Source of the DNA: a virus
Strand: one strand, 5' to 3'
DNA: 40,482 nt
Virus record (IMG/VR): IMGVR_UViG_3300025303_000097
Location: 1-40,482 of that record
Part shown: one piece after another, positions 32,385 to 37,776 of the stretch
How positions within the stretch are numbered: position 1 is the first letter of the stretch
How the letters are laid out: the number at the start of each line of letters is the position of its first letter
Notes under the pieces: model-generated
Told to the model about the DNA's origin: nothing
The model's input: only the letters and a program-made list of their open reading frames with translations
The model's database searches: none
Translations under genes and position numbers: made by a program

Positions 32385-34288
32385 TACGCCGCCATAAGTT
32401 GGAAGTTCGGGTCGTCCCATGGGGAAGCTATGGGCGCGATTTCAGCGCCGCCGTCTGCAGCCGCGCCAGCGGCCATTGCAAGAGCGACCGCCGAGTCGAT
32501 ACGCACCGACGCACGGGTTTTCACAAACCACCGATTTCCGTGAGGATCCGGTGGATGGTTGAATGTCGCACCCATGAGAGCGGACATCAGGACTGGATTG
32601 CGACGGAGCCGGATGCGCCCATCAATGATGAGGTTTTCCAGTTCGGTTACAGAGCCGGGCATCCACAGCCCGAGCGGCGCTTTTTGGCCGGCGGCCTTAG
32701 CTGCCTCGATGCGCGCCTCAGATGGCTTGGCCCTCACCTTTCCGCCTTGCGGATGGGGTAAGGTCTCAGCCTCTACGCCGAACGCATCTAGCTCATCTTT
32801 GAACTTGGCGAACGCGTAGTTGTCATAGGCGATCGCCTTGATGTTGAAGGTGCTGTTGATCTCAGCCACTCGAGCGGCAATGATATCGAAGCGGATGCGC
32901 GGACCTGGTGGAGCGTTGAGAAACCCGTCACGGACCCAAAGGTCGTAGGGCTGCTTGTCTGCCGCGGTCCTGGCCGCCAAGGTATCGCCCGGCGTCCAGG
33001 CCTCAATCCAAGCATCATAGGTCGGCAGGACTGCTATGCTGCTGTCGGCTCGAACGACTTCGACCGTGCCAGTCGGCACGACACACGCCACAACAGCCAT
33101 GTCCTTGGTGCCGGCAAGGTCGATGCCCAGGTAGACATCCTTGCCTGCGTGTTCCTCTGGATCAAACGGTACCATGACCGTCTCAACCGTTTCGCGGGAC
33201 ATCCACGCTTTGTCAGCATCGGTCCAGACGCAGAAATGCAAGCGAAGAACGTTATTCAGCTTGCCAGGCACTGCCCTAGCTTCGGCAACCACCCCAGCGA
33301 GATAATCGACTGTCAGGATCGTGCCGAGAAGCGGATTCGCCTTCACCCAGCATGACGAGTCCGTCATCGGATCATCGTCTTTGTCGAGACTGCAGATAAA
33401 CGCGAAGACGCTGTCACTGCCCTCCCACGCCTCGCCGACAAAGGTAAAATCGTCGTCTGGCGTTTGGGTGCCGGCCACAACCTTGACCGCTCGTTCCCGC
33501 TCCTCCCAGCAGACCGAATTCCTGTCGCTGCCGGAGTTTGTGATCATCAAAAGCAGAGGGTTCTGCCGAAACTTGAATCCCCGCTGGAGCATTTCCATGA
33601 TGCTGCGGTCAGGATGTTCATGAACTTCATCGCAGAGGGCCATGTGCGGGCGTGGCCCTGAGCCGGTCTTGCCTGCCTCCTTGGAGATCGGGCGGAAGAA
33701 CGACTGCGACCGGTGATGGGCAATGTTGAATTCCTTGCCCAAGCCGCCACTGAATTTCAGCCGATCGTTCAAAGCTGGTGCCTGCCGGACCATCTTGCAC
33801 GCGTCCTGAAACAGGATCTGCGCTTGGTCTTTCTTGGCGGCGGCGGCATAGATCTGTGCGCTAGGCTCAGAGTCTGCCATGAGGCCATAGAGGCCAATGC
33901 CGCCGGCGAACGGCGACTTGCCGTTGCCTTTACCTTCCTCGATGTAGACCGTGCGAAAGCGCCTGGTCCCGTCCGTCCTTTTCCAGCCGAAGATGGAGCC
34001 CAGTTTGAAAGCCTGCGACGGATGCAGCTTGAACGGCTTTCCGTCGAACTGGCCGTCGCTCAGGCGCAGGCGCTCTTCAAAGAAACGGAAAACTCGCGTG
34101 GCTGCCGCGTCATCCCAAGACAGCCCGCGCTCATGACCATTGGTCAGATCAGCTAGATGTCTGCGGCAAGCGTTTCGAACGTGAGGACCGGCAATGATCT
34201 CCCCATCAAGCACTGCACGCGCATAAGCAGACACGCGCTTTAGCGCCGGCCCCTCAATCGAGGAGGTCGTCCTTTTCCTCATCGGCAT
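32384..34288 (-). CDS. terL: Terminase large subunit
   Basis: A 634-residue packaging motor and nuclease. ATPase domain: Walker A-like EEGKGNGKS (117-125), Walker B-like MALCDEVHE (216-224), and a coupling motif MITNSGSD. Nuclease domain starts with Asp390 in YLGIDLAGTKDMAV, followed by IKAIAYDNYAFAKFKDELDA and the final NRWFVKTRASVRIDSAVALA. It is of the P27/HK97 cos type. The start overlaps the small subunit gene by 35 bases; ATG 34282 is an alternative. Confidence 0.96.
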   Translation of the reverse strand: MPMRKRTTSSIEGPALKRVSAYARAVLDGEIIAGPHVRNACRRHLADLTNGHERGLSWDDAAATRVFRFFEERLRLSDGQFDGKPFKLHPSQAFKLGSIFGWKRTDGTRRFRTVYIEEGKGNGKSPFAGGIGLYGLMADSEPSAQIYAAAAKKDQAQILFQDACKMVRQAPALNDRLKFSGGLGKEFNIAHHRSQSFFRPISKEAGKTGSGPRPHMALCDEVHEHPDRSIMEMLQRGFKFRQNPLLLMITNSGSDRNSVCWEERERAVKVVAGTQTPDDDFTFVGEAWEGSDSVFAFICSLDKDDDPMTDSSCWVKANPLLGTILTVDYLAGVVAEARAVPGKLNNVLRLHFCVWTDADKAWMSRETVETVMVPFDPEEHAGKDVYLGIDLAGTKDMAVVACVVPTGTVEVVRADSSIAVLPTYDAWIEAWTPGDTLAARTAADKQPYDLWVRDGFLNAPPGPRIRFDIIAARVAEINSTFNIKAIAYDNYAFAKFKDELDAFGVEAETLPHPQGGKVRAKPSEARIEAAKAAGQKAPLGLWMPGSVTELENLIIDGRIRLRRNPVLMSALMGATFNHPPDPHGNRWFVKTRASVRIDSAVALAMAAGAAADGGAEIAPIASPWDDPNFQLMAA

Positions 34289-34640
34289 CAGTCACCGTCA
34301 CTTTTGAGGCGTCAGAAGGCGTTGCCCCCATCTGCCCCAGCATCTGCCGGAGGAGATTCATCGCCTGGACTCCAACCTCTTGGCCGGCCATCATGCGCCC
34401 CTGGATATTGGCCGCCATCCCGACCAGCATTCGGTGGGACTCAGTCAGCCACGGAATTTCCTTGCGAAACAGCTCCCAGGCTGACTTTGCCTTGATCGTG
34501 TCGTTGTCGACGATCCACTTCGGCGGAGCTCCAAGGGGCTCATTGGCGCCTAGTTCTTTGCGCCCCTTGAACCGGCCCGCGTTGATCTTGTCTCTGCCCT
34601 CGGTCTTAGCCTTGCCGAGGGGATTTCTCAGCCTGGCCAT
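34254..34640 (-). CDS. terS: Terminase small subunit (P27 family)
   Basis: A 128-residue protein, start MARLRNPLGK. It shows the P27 pattern: LGAPPKWIVDNDTIKAKSAW, LFRKEIPWLTESHRMLVGMA, ANIQGRMMAG. It recognises the packaging site and hands DNA to TerL. Acidic C-terminus (TDADEEKDDLLD). Confidence 0.88.
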   Translation of the reverse strand: MARLRNPLGKAKTEGRDKINAGRFKGRKELGANEPLGAPPKWIVDNDTIKAKSAWELFRKEIPWLTESHRMLVGMAANIQGRMMAGQEVGVQAMNLLRQMLGQMGATPSDASKVTVTDADEEKDDLLD

Positions 34641-34747
34641 CTGGCGAAATCCTAATCAGGGTGGGTGGGTCATATTTTGAATTGCAGATGCGTGCGCGAT
34701 GCGGCAACACCGGTTCCTCGATGGCGCAGTTCCACAACTTTGGAACA

Positions 34748-34766
34748 CCCCTCCCCGTCAGAGGGG
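34748..34766. repeat. Short hairpin at the 3' end of the HNH gene
   Basis: CCCCTC (34748-34753) and GAGGGG (34761-34766) pair around a seven-base loop that contains the HNH stop codon. It is a weak candidate for an attenuator between HNH and terS. Confidence 0.35.
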
Positions 34767-35072
34767 CCAGCCGTCCGGCCCGAACCGCACGACGGTCTTG
34801 CCGTTGTCCTCGAGTTGCCCGCGCGAGGCATGGCATGGCCCGCATGTTGAGACCAATGGGCCGCCATAGAAAATCTCAAGGTCACCTCGATGTGGCGTTG
34901 CGTGATGCACCTCAGTAGCCTCGGTGATCGTCTCCGATTCCAAACACCATTCGCAAAGCGGCGACTGCGCTAGCTGCTGATGTCGGATGGAGCGCCAGCG
35001 TGCCGTCTTGTAGAGACGGCGGTAGGCTGCGGCTTCAGCAGAGCGGCCACCAGGAACTCTGGGGTAGGTCAA
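34758..35072 (-). CDS. HNH endonuclease of the packaging module
   Basis: A 104-residue nuclease. Visible motifs: RRLYKTARWRSIRHQQLAQS, CEWC, EVHHATPHRGD with the catalytic His pair, and CGPCHASRGQL. The two Cys pairs bind the structural zinc. HNH proteins beside terS/terL are known partners of terminase in cos-cleaving HK97-like phages. The start is uncertain: TTG 35072 has GGAG ten bases upstream and stays clear of the divergent gene; the frame is open to 35168 but that part has no domain. Confidence 0.85.
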   Translation of the reverse strand: MTYPRVPGGRSAEAAAYRRLYKTARWRSIRHQQLAQSPLCEWCLESETITEATEVHHATPHRGDLEIFYGGPLVSTCGPCHASRGQLEDNGKTVVRFGPDGWPL

Positions 35073-35104
35073 GCGTTCAATCTCCGCAAACCCAGGAGGC
35101 GCAG

Positions 35105-35287
35105 ATGGCAGACGATAAATCGAAACGTGGCGCGGCTGACCGCAACAAAGTTGCCGGCGGAGAACCATATGAAGTCAGCTACTTCGCCAAGAAGCATGGA
35201 TTGAGCAAGGAAGATGCGGAGCGCATCATCAAGCGGCACGGCCCAGATAGAGATGCAGCTGACAAGGCGGCTCAACGGCTCAAATAG
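35105..35287 (+). CDS. DUF3606 protein (small, stand-alone)
   Basis: A 60-residue protein with AGGAGG six bases before the ATG. It matches DUF3606: DRNKVAGGEPYEVSYFAKKH, GLSKEDAERIIKRHG, ADKAAQRLK. These helical, lysine-rich proteins are common in Rhizobiales and in rhizobial phages; their function is unknown. It is divergent to the HNH gene with 32 bases between the starts. Confidence 0.85.
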   Translation: MADDKSKRGAADRNKVAGGEPYEVSYFAKKHGLSKEDAERIIKRHGPDRDAADKAAQRLK

Positions 35288-35292
35288 CGAAA

Positions 35293-35384
35293 GCGCCAGG
35301 GAGCGCGATTACCGCCGATAGCAGCACCGACACTCAACCTGGCGCAGGATTACCGCGTCGCGAGAGGAGGCGCGCTGCGGTAAT
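35293..35384. repeat. Nested direct and inverted repeats upstream of packaging genes
   Basis: GATTACCGC occurs at 35307-35315 and 35348-35356, with an inverted ATTACCGC at 35377-35384. GCGCCAGG (35293-35300) has an inverted partner CCTGGCGC (35338-35345). The two units partly duplicate each other (spacing 41 bases). Possible cosB/terminase sites, an operator, or a replication site. Confidence 0.5.
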
Positions 35385-35432
35385 TGGAAAGGTTTTAGAC
35401 TTAAGGTCCCGAATATTTTGCAGGGGTACGTG

Positions 35433-36119
35433 ATGGCCTTAAGTCAATTCCAGATAATCAAATCGTTAGGGGAAGCGCTTGCGTGGTTCGAGCGCGAGCT
35501 TGCGTGGGGTGTTCCAGCGTCGGAACTTAATCACCTCACCGGTCGTATCGGTGAGCTCTACACAGCTATGTTCACTTACGGGCAAATGGCGCCCGAGTCG
35601 AAGCAGCGTGGTTATGACGTGGTGAGCGCGGACGGACAGAAGATCTCTGTAAAGACAGTGACTTCTTCGACCCAAGTATCGTTCAACGAAAACACATTCA
35701 GCGATGTCGATCGTGTCGTGGTCCTCAGGATCAACGCTAAAGAGCTGGCAATCGAGATATTGATGGATCTGCCGGCATCAGAAGCCCGAGACAGCATGCG
35801 GACACGCGCAGGAAAGCTCGTGTTTCCGACCTACAAGTCGCCAACGCAAGCCGATCACCTTCCTCTTAGCAATCTCCAGATCACCAAGATGGCCAATGCC
35901 GGCCAAGTTCAAATTCGCCAATACGAGAACGGAACTGTCGAAGTTTTGAGGGATGGTCACTTGATCGCACCCGCACTACCGCTTCTCCGCGAGCTGTCGA
36001 TGGAGCTCGGCATTGATCATCTTAATAGCACAGGGACGCCGAAGAACACCCGTCACCTAGGCGATCAGATCATCCGCGAACTGCTTGCGCGGCAGCAAGA
36101 GACATCGCAAGACGAATAG
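35433..36119 (+). CDS. DUF6998-like protein with restriction-endonuclease-like motif
   Basis: A 228-residue protein from MALSQFQIIK, AGGGG seven bases upstream. Residues about 35-100 resemble DUF6998: HLTGRIGELYTAMFTYG, then GYDVVSADGQKISVKTVT, then VDRVVVLRINAK. The E-x..D-x..Q-x-K-like order (Glu in GRIGE, Asp in GYDV, Lys in SVKT) is that of PD-(D/E)XK nuclease folds, although assignment by eye is tentative. The C-terminus is helical (PLLRELSMELGI; LGDQIIRELLARQQE). It is monocistronic, on the strand opposite to the late operon, and closed by the terminator at 36182-36206, so it looks like a lysogen-expressed moron. Confidence 0.75.
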   Translation: MALSQFQIIKSLGEALAWFERELAWGVPASELNHLTGRIGELYTAMFTYGQMAPESKQRGYDVVSADGQKISVKTVTSSTQVSFNENTFSDVDRVVVLRINAKELAIEILMDLPASEARDSMRTRAGKLVFPTYKSPTQADHLPLSNLQITKMANAGQVQIRQYENGTVEVLRDGHLIAPALPLLRELSMELGIDHLNSTGTPKNTRHLGDQIIRELLARQQETSQDE

Positions 36120-36181
36120 AGATGAGGCTGGCCCGGCGAACTCGCGAGTCTCAAACGTCCGCGGTTGACGGCGCCTCAAAC

Positions 36182-36206
36182 AAAAACGGACGCACGAGCG
36201 TCCGTT
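36182..36206. terminator. Strong bidirectional intrinsic terminator
   Basis: AACGGACGC (36185-36193) pairs exactly with GCGTCCGTT (36198-36206). On the minus strand it runs into TTTTT (36186-36182); on the plus strand into TTGGGTTT. It separates the convergent genes ending at 36119 and 36260. Confidence 0.8.
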
Positions 36207-36259
36207 GGGTTTCAGAACCCTTCATGAATATACGGTTCGGGCATACCTTTGACTGGACA

Positions 36260-37375
36260 CTAAGCCGCGGCTTTTAGCGGAATACATCCGAAATCGCCTC
36301 GCGCCGTCTCATCGATCTCGATCAGCTTGTCGATCGCATCGTCTATCAGGCCGGCGCCACGCTTTGCCGCGTACGCTGGCGCAAGTCCCATGGCGATGCC
36401 GATCTCGGCTGCAGGTGTGTTACTGATAGCCAGGTCCAGCACCTTGGCATGATCCCCCAGCTTGAACCGCAGACGATCTACGTAATCTGCGGTCTCAACA
36501 TGTCTGACGAACTCTGGTTCGCGGCCGGCCGGTTCGGAAGCTGTCGGCTTCGGCATCTTTATTCCACCAAGGTAAAGCGCTCCCGAGGCGTGGCCGACAG
36601 GGCAGCGGCTGGCTTGGAAGGGCAACTGCTCGAAAGGCACGCTTCCGTCGATGCCGAGATCTTGAAGCAGCTTGCGCGCCTTCTGAGCGGAAGGTGATGG
36701 CGTGAAGTAATCACCAACAGCCGGCTCGGCAGAAAGAGGCTTCAGATAAGGTTCTGCCGTAAACGGGGAGATCGCACCTGTCAGTTCGAGATATGATAAG
36801 ATGCCGCTTTCTGACCGTTCCGCCTTCGATCCGCCCTTTTCTCCGCGGCGGCGCTCATCAGGTCGCAAGGCTCGGCCCTTGGCCGTTGTTCCCCATTGTT
36901 TTAGCTCGCCATTGCGGAATGTCAGATCGCCAATGCTGGCATCAAGCGACCCGTTCCGGGTCGTAGTATAACGGACAAGTGGCGCAGGCTCGTCGTCATA
37001 GGTGTTCGCCATCTCGCCCGTATGATCCCAACGCGCGCGGCCAGTAACCTTGCGGCCAACGGCACCGAGCAGCTCTGCCTCAGACGGCCTGATTTCAATC
37101 GCGCATTCGGGCTCATATTGCTCTTCTTGATCGGGAATTTCCATGTCCCGTGGGAAGCAAAGGTCACGCCAATGCCGAAGAGCGAACGCACGAACAACAT
37201 CGCCACGATGCGCCAACCGCTCGAATGCCGGCCATGCCAGGAGAGGTCGTGCCGGTTTGTTGTCGTTGGCCGGCTGACGCACCTTGACGACCGTCGACTT
37301 CGGCTTCTCAAGAGGCGCGCTGGTGTGATCTGCCAGCATTGTGGCAAGCTGTGAGAAGTCACGTGCCTTGGTCAT
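36260..37375 (-). CDS. Unknown replication-region protein (371 aa)
   Basis: A 371-residue protein from MTKARDFSQL; the start overlaps the stop before it (TAATG). A low-complexity linker (RQPANDNKPARP) is followed by a region with domain-like blocks (LLAWPAFERLAHRGDVVRAF; ARWDHTGEMANTYDDEPAPL). The C-terminus (LDLAISNTPAAEIGIAMGLA; AAKRGAGLIDDAIDKLIEID) resembles a helix-turn-helix. It may bind DNA and act in replication or late control, but I recognise no family. Confidence 0.7.
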   Translation of the reverse strand: MTKARDFSQLATMLADHTSAPLEKPKSTVVKVRQPANDNKPARPLLAWPAFERLAHRGDVVRAFALRHWRDLCFPRDMEIPDQEEQYEPECAIEIRPSEAELLGAVGRKVTGRARWDHTGEMANTYDDEPAPLVRYTTTRNGSLDASIGDLTFRNGELKQWGTTAKGRALRPDERRRGEKGGSKAERSESGILSYLELTGAISPFTAEPYLKPLSAEPAVGDYFTPSPSAQKARKLLQDLGIDGSVPFEQLPFQASRCPVGHASGALYLGGIKMPKPTASEPAGREPEFVRHVETADYVDRLRFKLGDHAKVLDLAISNTPAAEIGIAMGLAPAYAAKRGAGLIDDAIDKLIEIDETARGDFGCIPLKAAA

Positions 37376-37776
37376 TAGCGGCTCCATTTTGGCTTAGGGT
37401 CGGGAATGTTGTCGATCGCATTTGACATGCTGGTTGGGACGCCGGGTGGCCATTCGGCCAAAATCGAGGCCTTTCCTCTTGCCAGCCGAAACGCGGCAAG
37501 CCTCTCTTCCTCGGCCGCCGTCCGAGTGACGCAAAGGCTCAAGGTATAGTCCTTGTCCGCCTTCGCCTTGTCCCGCTCTTGCTCGAGCTCTTTGACTCGC
37601 ACTTGCAAGATTTCGATCGTCCGGTGCGCGTCAGCCAGGTGGCGGCGATAGTGGTCGCCACGCGCTCGAGGATCCCGGGGCGCTGTGCTGTCGGCCAGCA
37701 GCGTGCGCATCGCCTCTTTGGCTAGCGCGCTCTCGCGGCGCGCGGATTCCTCCGCAGTCTTGACGCGTCTGCTCAT
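37375..37776 (-). CDS. Coiled-coil unknown protein
   Basis: A 133-residue protein from MSRRVKTAEE with a strong GGAGGAAG site upstream; the longer frame to 37836 is not supported. A clear coiled coil covers residues about 40-85 (HLADAHRTIEILQVRVKELE). The C-terminus is basic/proline-rich (WPPGVPTSMSN; DPKPKWSR). It is coupled to the next gene. Function unknown. Confidence 0.65.
   Translation of the reverse strand: MSRRVKTAEESARRESALAKEAMRTLLADSTAPRDPRARGDHYRRHLADAHRTIEILQVRVKELEQERDKAKADKDYTLSLCVTRTAAEEERLAAFRLARGKASILAEWPPGVPTSMSNAIDNIPDPKPKWSR

Follow-up and report, generated by a model that had tools for sequence, protein, structure and literature searches.

The closest described systems are the restriction endonucleases of the BisI family, such as NhoI, Eco15I, BisI and Pam7902I, which are solitary enzymes with a PD-(D/E)XK core and helices alpha0-alpha1. 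NhoI and Eco15I_Ntd are reported to cut multiply 5mC-modified GCNGC with an active site formed by the alpha1 glutamate, a 'PD' aspartate and a QVK or QIK motif (PMC11347163), and many homologues in the family are reported to be 150-190 aa long (PMC4926085). Every active-site alteration described as tested in Eco15I_Ntd abolished its activity (PMC11347163), whereas in Pam7902I the D59A and K74A alterations abolish activity and Q72A keeps it in part (PMC8281217). As far as these reports go, Eco15I_Ntd is less tolerant of active-site change than Pam7902I, and the partial activity of Pam7902I Q72A suggests that a missing glutamine need not mean inactivity. Another characterised enzyme is the 5mC-dependent EcoBLMcrX, which is ECD_RS10570 of E. 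coli BL21(DE3); it is reported to restrict T4gt and to cut modified-cytosine DNA, and its gene lies on a strain-specific island (PMC5487053). RefSeq names this protein (L146:3712-4143; L numbers denote the loci compared here) only a 'DUF6998 domain-containing protein', and Pfam describes PF22522, the DUF6998 family, as of unknown function. Prophages are also known to carry modification-dependent restriction enzymes, such as McrA of the e14 prophage, but McrA is an HNH nuclease of unrelated fold. In our comparisons EcoBLMcrX matched PF22522 at E 1.7e-10, NhoI at 5.4e-18 and Eco15I at 1.5e-14; because it is a PF22522 member and also matches NhoI and Eco15I, we conclude that PF22522 covers BisI-type enzymes. 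A Pfam family listed as having 'unknown function' is thereby linked to restriction enzymes that have been characterised, which gives DUF6998 proteins a testable function. No paper in the literature searched names DUF6998 or joins any two of BisI, DUF6998 and PF22522. DUF6998 proteins were found at E 0.001 in 14 of 385 and 61 of 369 genomes in two class samples, and EcoBLMcrX used as the query found zero relatives in 50,697 phage records or in IMG/VR.

The DUF6998 gene described here belongs to a virus, IMG/VR record IMGVR_UViG_3300025303_000097, whose 40,482 bases form the window, that is, the whole stretch of DNA that was analysed. An integrase is encoded at 518-1867, and the large terminase is 92.9% identical to its counterpart in Rhizobium phage RHph_Y3_1, which places the phage in a rhizobial group. 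The features of the locus are as follows.

34758-35168, minus strand: HNH endonuclease gene (family match), the left border of the variable slot
35105-35287, plus strand: DUF3606 gene (Pfam PF12244, E 3e-9), 145 bp upstream of the DUF6998 gene and also in RHph_Y3_1
35349-35384, no strand: conserved hairpin element with GAGGAGGC loop, directly left of the cassette (alignment across phages)
35385-36114, no strand: 730-bp segment missing from Rhizobium phage RHph_Y3_1, the cargo cassette (alignment)
35433-36119, plus strand: DUF6998 (PF22522) nuclease-like gene, 228 aa (ORF, Pfam, alignment, predicted model, structure matches)
35553-35555, plus strand: codon of E41, the catalytic-type glutamate of helix alpha1, in 86/86 relatives; aligns with E33 of EcoBLMcrX
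35616-35618, plus strand: codon of D62, the 'PD' aspartate, in 86/86
35646-35654, plus strand: codons of S72-V73-K74, the (D/E)XK position with serine for Q/E; K in 86/86, S in 85/86
35841-36116, plus strand: extra C-terminal domain, residues 137-228, with four strands and two helices (separate model, structure searches)
36185-36206, minus strand: terminator-like hairpin for the converging minus-strand operon
36260-37387, minus strand: 375-aa gene without assigned function, the right border of the variable slot (locus comparison)

The open reading frame (MALSQ...QDE) carries GRIGE with E41, GYDVV with D62 and ISVKT with S72-V73-K74 where the initial annotation had placed them, and the DUF6998-like assignment made there holds, as the protein matches PF22522 at E 3e-10 and 40.6 bits, above the gathering score of 27, over residues 33-125. 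PHROGs gave no match to the protein, and NCBIfam gave scattered, weak ones. The ATG start is kept in the family, with M at position 1 in 71 of 86 relatives, and comparison with a 93%-identical phage copy (L106) indicates purifying selection on the gene (dN 0.032, dS 0.639). The gene sits between the packaging and replication modules on the plus strand, opposite in orientation to the minus-strand terminase and portal genes, so the earlier description of a gene opposite to the late operon is correct. Other parts of that description were not confirmed. The gene had been called monocistronic, but the DUF3606 gene is a second plus-strand gene just upstream. It had also been described as closed by a strong terminator, but the T tract of the hairpin at 36185-36206, which is followed on the plus strand by TGGGTTTC, belongs to the minus strand, so that the hairpin is positioned to terminate the converging operon ending at 36260. 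Expression in the lysogen, which had been proposed as well, finds no support in the sequence; no sigma-70-type promoter was found just upstream of the gene, and the single site, at 34847-34874, is not above shuffled expectation.

Comparison with RHph_Y3_1 (L229) shows that the DUF6998 gene is a one-gene cargo and supports the earlier suggestion of a moron. Window positions 34000-35384 align with this phage at 85.9% identity, ending at base 4907 of L229, and the alignment resumes at base 4909 of L229 with window positions 36115-36657, so that exactly the cassette is missing. RHph_Y3_1 retains the opposite-strand DUF3606 gene, which indicates that DUF3606 is the resident and DUF6998 the addition. 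A search with the HNH gene found 21 related loci, and the DUF6998 gene is absent from 18 of them; the three carriers are two fragments that match the window phage at 100% and L128, which is the same phage as L106. All of L125, L127 and L129, with terminases 94-96% identical, are without the gene, and L107-L109 and L112, with terminases only 26-30% identical, nevertheless carry it. The gene lies right of the conserved hairpin in the window, L106 and L107 and left of it in L109 and L112, which suggests separate acquisitions. Other candidate cargo ORFs were seen in the same slot, namely L125:4575-4943 (122 aa), L129:4866-5237 (123 aa) and L122:5830-6690 (286 aa).

The slot also contains two conserved non-coding elements. 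The hairpin at 35349-35384 has an invariant loop, GAGGAGGC(A)GCGC. In related phages it is flanked by the terminase/HNH genes and by the replication module, and it was found in L106, L107, L108, L109, L112, L122, L125, L126 and L127, as well as in L135, L140, L141, L142, L143, L229 and L230. Its outer stem (ATTACC/GGTAAT), which was picked by eye once the sequences had been seen, scored 90.5% paired, and two of its pairs show changes on both sides, in 6 cells altogether; RNAalifold on a MAFFT alignment of the hairpin gave no outer stem, and Rfam gave no family at the locus, the best chance match having E 0.93. The hairpin could serve in packaging, as a cos element, or in regulation. The second element, GAGGC...CGTCCGC...GCGCCTCA, lies at window 36122-36180 and also occurs in L126, L127, L129, L143 and L229. 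It adjoins the hairpin in cargo-free phages, and in the window the cargo splits the pair.

Searches for relatives of the window protein gave 11 and later 14 viral loci, 26 plasmid records and 107 places in bacterial genomes. The best 80 of these 107 were kept, and they come mostly from Alpha-, Beta- and Gammaproteobacteria, but also from Planctomycetes, Verrucomicrobia (Rubritalea) and Sulfurospirillum records as judged by title. A tblastn search with the window protein found zero relatives in the 50,697 phage records. Alignment of 86 distinct window-type proteins (alignment A2), all of which match PF22522 at E <= 0.01, reveals that E41, D62 and K74 are invariant, while position 72 is S in 85 proteins and T in one. 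When 22 of these rows were compared with 41 other DUF6998 proteins, the S72 column held S in 21 and T in one of the window-type rows versus Q in 37 and E in four of the others, and position 38 was R in 22/22 versus acidic in 36/41. The three catalytic-type columns are nevertheless kept in the other proteins (E in 41, D in 40 and K in 41 of the 41).

An AlphaFold2 model built on alignment A2 (pLDDT 90.4, pTM 0.68) predicts a PD-(D/E)XK nuclease core in the window protein, with a helix at residues 5-24, a helix at 33-47 carrying E41, D62 at the start of a strand, a strand at 70-76 carrying S72-V-K74, and strands to about residue 132. In a Foldseek search against the PDB the ten best matches are all NhoI or Eco15I chains (E 1.9e-5 to 5.2e-3), and VIA-align superposes the model on NhoI with Z 10.6 over 107 residues at 3.2 A, and on another NhoI entry over 98 residues at 2.0 A. 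PDB sequence searches, with the single sequence and with a profile, did not reach NhoI; their best profile matches, lipoamide acyltransferase domains at E 0.45, were taken as chance. The initial annotation, although wrong on the direction of the terminator, was thus right on the cargo status and the fold, and the two checks that it had proposed, a predicted nuclease core and catalytic residues conserved in homologues, both came out in its favour; the kinship with BisI-type enzymes was beyond its reach.

The core is followed by the extra C-terminal domain, which was modelled alone with pLDDT 84.8. Compared with solved structures it gave no clear match, the best Foldseek E being 0.28 and the best VIA Z 4.2, over 33 residues; this result does not establish a new fold. 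Eco15I likewise has an extra C-terminal domain (PMC11347163). DpnI also combines a nuclease core with a C-terminal domain (VIA Z 6.4), but the DpnI domain is a winged helix that reads 6mA, and the C-terminal model of the window protein matched nothing of that fold. Residues 161-217 occur twice in one ORF at L061:8001-8957 and at L098:8001-9002, which suggests that this part of the domain behaves as a module.

How close the window protein stands to the characterised enzymes depends on the breadth of the comparison. A profile of seven BisI-type proteins finds 42 of 45 further DUF6998 loci but misses both window-type ones (L157, L174), HMMs of the window-type and BisI-type groups do not detect each other, and hhalign of the 86-sequence family against the seven proteins alone is weak (probability 2.6%, E 0.018). 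When the set is widened to 41 BisI/DUF6998 sequences, however, hhalign pairs the E, D and K columns with one another at a probability of 96.6% and E 6.9e-10, and it is this comparison, together with Pfam and the structure matches, that carries the link. EcoBLMcrX, which shares PF22522 membership with the window protein, differs in having 143 aa, a QVK motif and no C-terminal domain, and the two proteins are kin in sequence only through the wider family. The BisI enzymes keep the E, D and K positions, but they have QxK, whereas the window protein has SxK and 228 aa. Since the D-X(10-12)-QxK motif of the strict BisI family is absent, with S72 in 85 of 86 and T in the other, we do not count the window protein among the BisI enzymes in the narrow sense. 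For the (H/R)(V/I/T/M) internal-methyl motif no conserved counterpart was recognisable in residues 115-135, but the loop there is aligned with gaps. The methyl-contact residues of NhoI are not recognisably kept. With its serine and its extra C-terminal domain, the window protein is a divergent branch of the DUF6998/BisI group.

The gene neighbourhoods of the relatives are rich in defence genes. The 149 immediate neighbours, a set that leaves out ORFs below 80 aa, neighbours of at least 1300 aa and duplicates, matched 170 PADLOC families at E 1e-8, compared with 13 for 147 control ORFs, which were taken from contig C1 in 31 of 40 genomes (the other nine had no such stretch); this contrast counts families rather than proteins, and one large protein may match many models. 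Among the 25 of 170 families listed are models of TIR effectors, type I, IIG and IV restriction proteins, Mad, AriA and DpdF. Defence genes may, however, concentrate in mobile islands whatever the DUF6998 gene does. No PADLOC model matches the window protein itself, and mREase_II touches 3 of the 86 relatives weakly (best E 0.0018). A further model, PDLC03213, was rejected as a bridge, as it had no matches in 40 family-bearing genomes and one in 274 genomes of one class.

Taken together, these results make it reasonably probable that a temperate rhizobial phage here carries, as one-gene cargo that protects its lysogen, a solitary and probably modification-dependent restriction endonuclease of the PD-(D/E)XK type from the DUF6998/BisI superfamily. 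The defence role proposed by the initial annotation gains indirect support from the defence-rich neighbourhoods and from the kinship with EcoBLMcrX, which is reported to restrict T4gt (PMC5487053). By analogy with NhoI, the N-terminal helix (residues 5-24) would serve for dimerisation, E41, D62 and the S72-V-K74 strand would bind Mg2+, and the protein would cut double-stranded DNA. The absence of a methylase nearby, which had been pointed out before, extends to the whole virus record, where PF00145 and PF01555 have zero matches, and fits a modification-dependent enzyme. As the gene travels without a methylase, its product would have to discriminate, most simply by requiring a modification; the enzyme would thus most likely cut only DNA with a modification foreign to the host and thereby shield the lysogen from phages or plasmids with modified DNA. 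Target choice may involve the C-terminal domain. What speaks against activity is S72 in place of the metal-binding Q/E in 85 of 86 relatives, together with the reported intolerance of Eco15I_Ntd to active-site change (PMC11347163). In literature listings on prophage-borne modification-dependent restriction, nothing was found on this gene. The gene is a candidate for an immunity function that rhizobial phages carry as single-gene cargo, and the window phage and RHph_Y3_1 form a natural with/without pair for it.

Several other roles for the nuclease have to be weighed. One is that of a free-standing homing endonuclease that cuts the uninterrupted intergenic site beside the conserved hairpin in related phages and copies itself there, as might be suggested by the exact insertion of a single gene beside a conserved element and by the PD-(D/E)XK homing enzyme I-Ssp6803I, the next structural match outside the BisI family (Z 7.5). 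We consider this unlikely, as the insertions on both sides of the hairpin leave no shared site and the neighbourhoods hold many defence genes. Clustering of four genes on each side at 89 loci (L014, L020, L036, L062 and L093 were dropped from 94 because a simple ORF caller lost the gene) also gave no recurrent partner and no cluster common to more than six loci, the largest being PAN-domain proteins of rhizobial loci (6/89) and large restriction/helicase proteins (5/89). Quite improbable is a conventional restriction enzyme that cuts unmodified DNA while a methylase encoded elsewhere protects the host. The catalytic residues are conserved and PvuII, a conventional enzyme, has the same fold (Z 6.1); L033 and L080 have type ISP restriction-modification genes in their vicinity, L097 and L102 have proteins similar to these nearby, and 2 of the 149 neighbours match a PADLOC type IIG enzyme-methylase model. 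On the other hand, among the 25 of 107 Pfam families listed for these neighbours no methylase family occurs in at least two, and a C5 methylase occurs once; the phage record, as noted, holds neither methylase family, and such an enzyme as mobile one-gene cargo would endanger every new host. We give similarly little credence to a nuclease that serves the phage, either structure-specific or in recombination (Hjc type), or attacking host DNA; Hjc resolvases do match the model and the gene does lie between packaging and replication modules, but the BisI-type structures score well above Hjc (Z 10.6 versus 6.9), close phages manage without the gene, and the relatives are found mostly in bacterial chromosomes and plasmids. 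A protein that keeps the nuclease fold but no longer its catalysis and works as a DNA-binding regulator or as an immunity protein, as the S for Q/E at the metal position throughout the branch might imply, is very improbable, since E41, D62 and K74 would not be expected to stay invariant in 86 of 86 were catalysis gone and Pam7902I Q72A is reported to be still partly active (PMC8281217).

If the restriction endonuclease reading is taken further, it is conceivable, though somewhat doubtful, that the branch forms a separate nuclease group, with SxK for QxK and a new C-terminal domain reading a modification other than 5mC at GCNGC, which spreads as a self-contained one-gene immunity cassette among phages, plasmids and defence islands of several bacterial phyla. 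Should the branch indeed read a different modification, it would offer a new tool for detecting modified DNA. Two minor observations concern the loci of the relatives. Uracil-DNA glycosylase is not among the listed families with at least two of the 149 neighbours, a set to which L014 does not belong, but its gene adjoins the DUF6998 gene in L014 and L015, two Rhodobacterales plasmids. In L038, L089 and L024 two copies of the DUF6998 gene lie near each other, and in L038 and L089 the second copy is diverged and follows directly.
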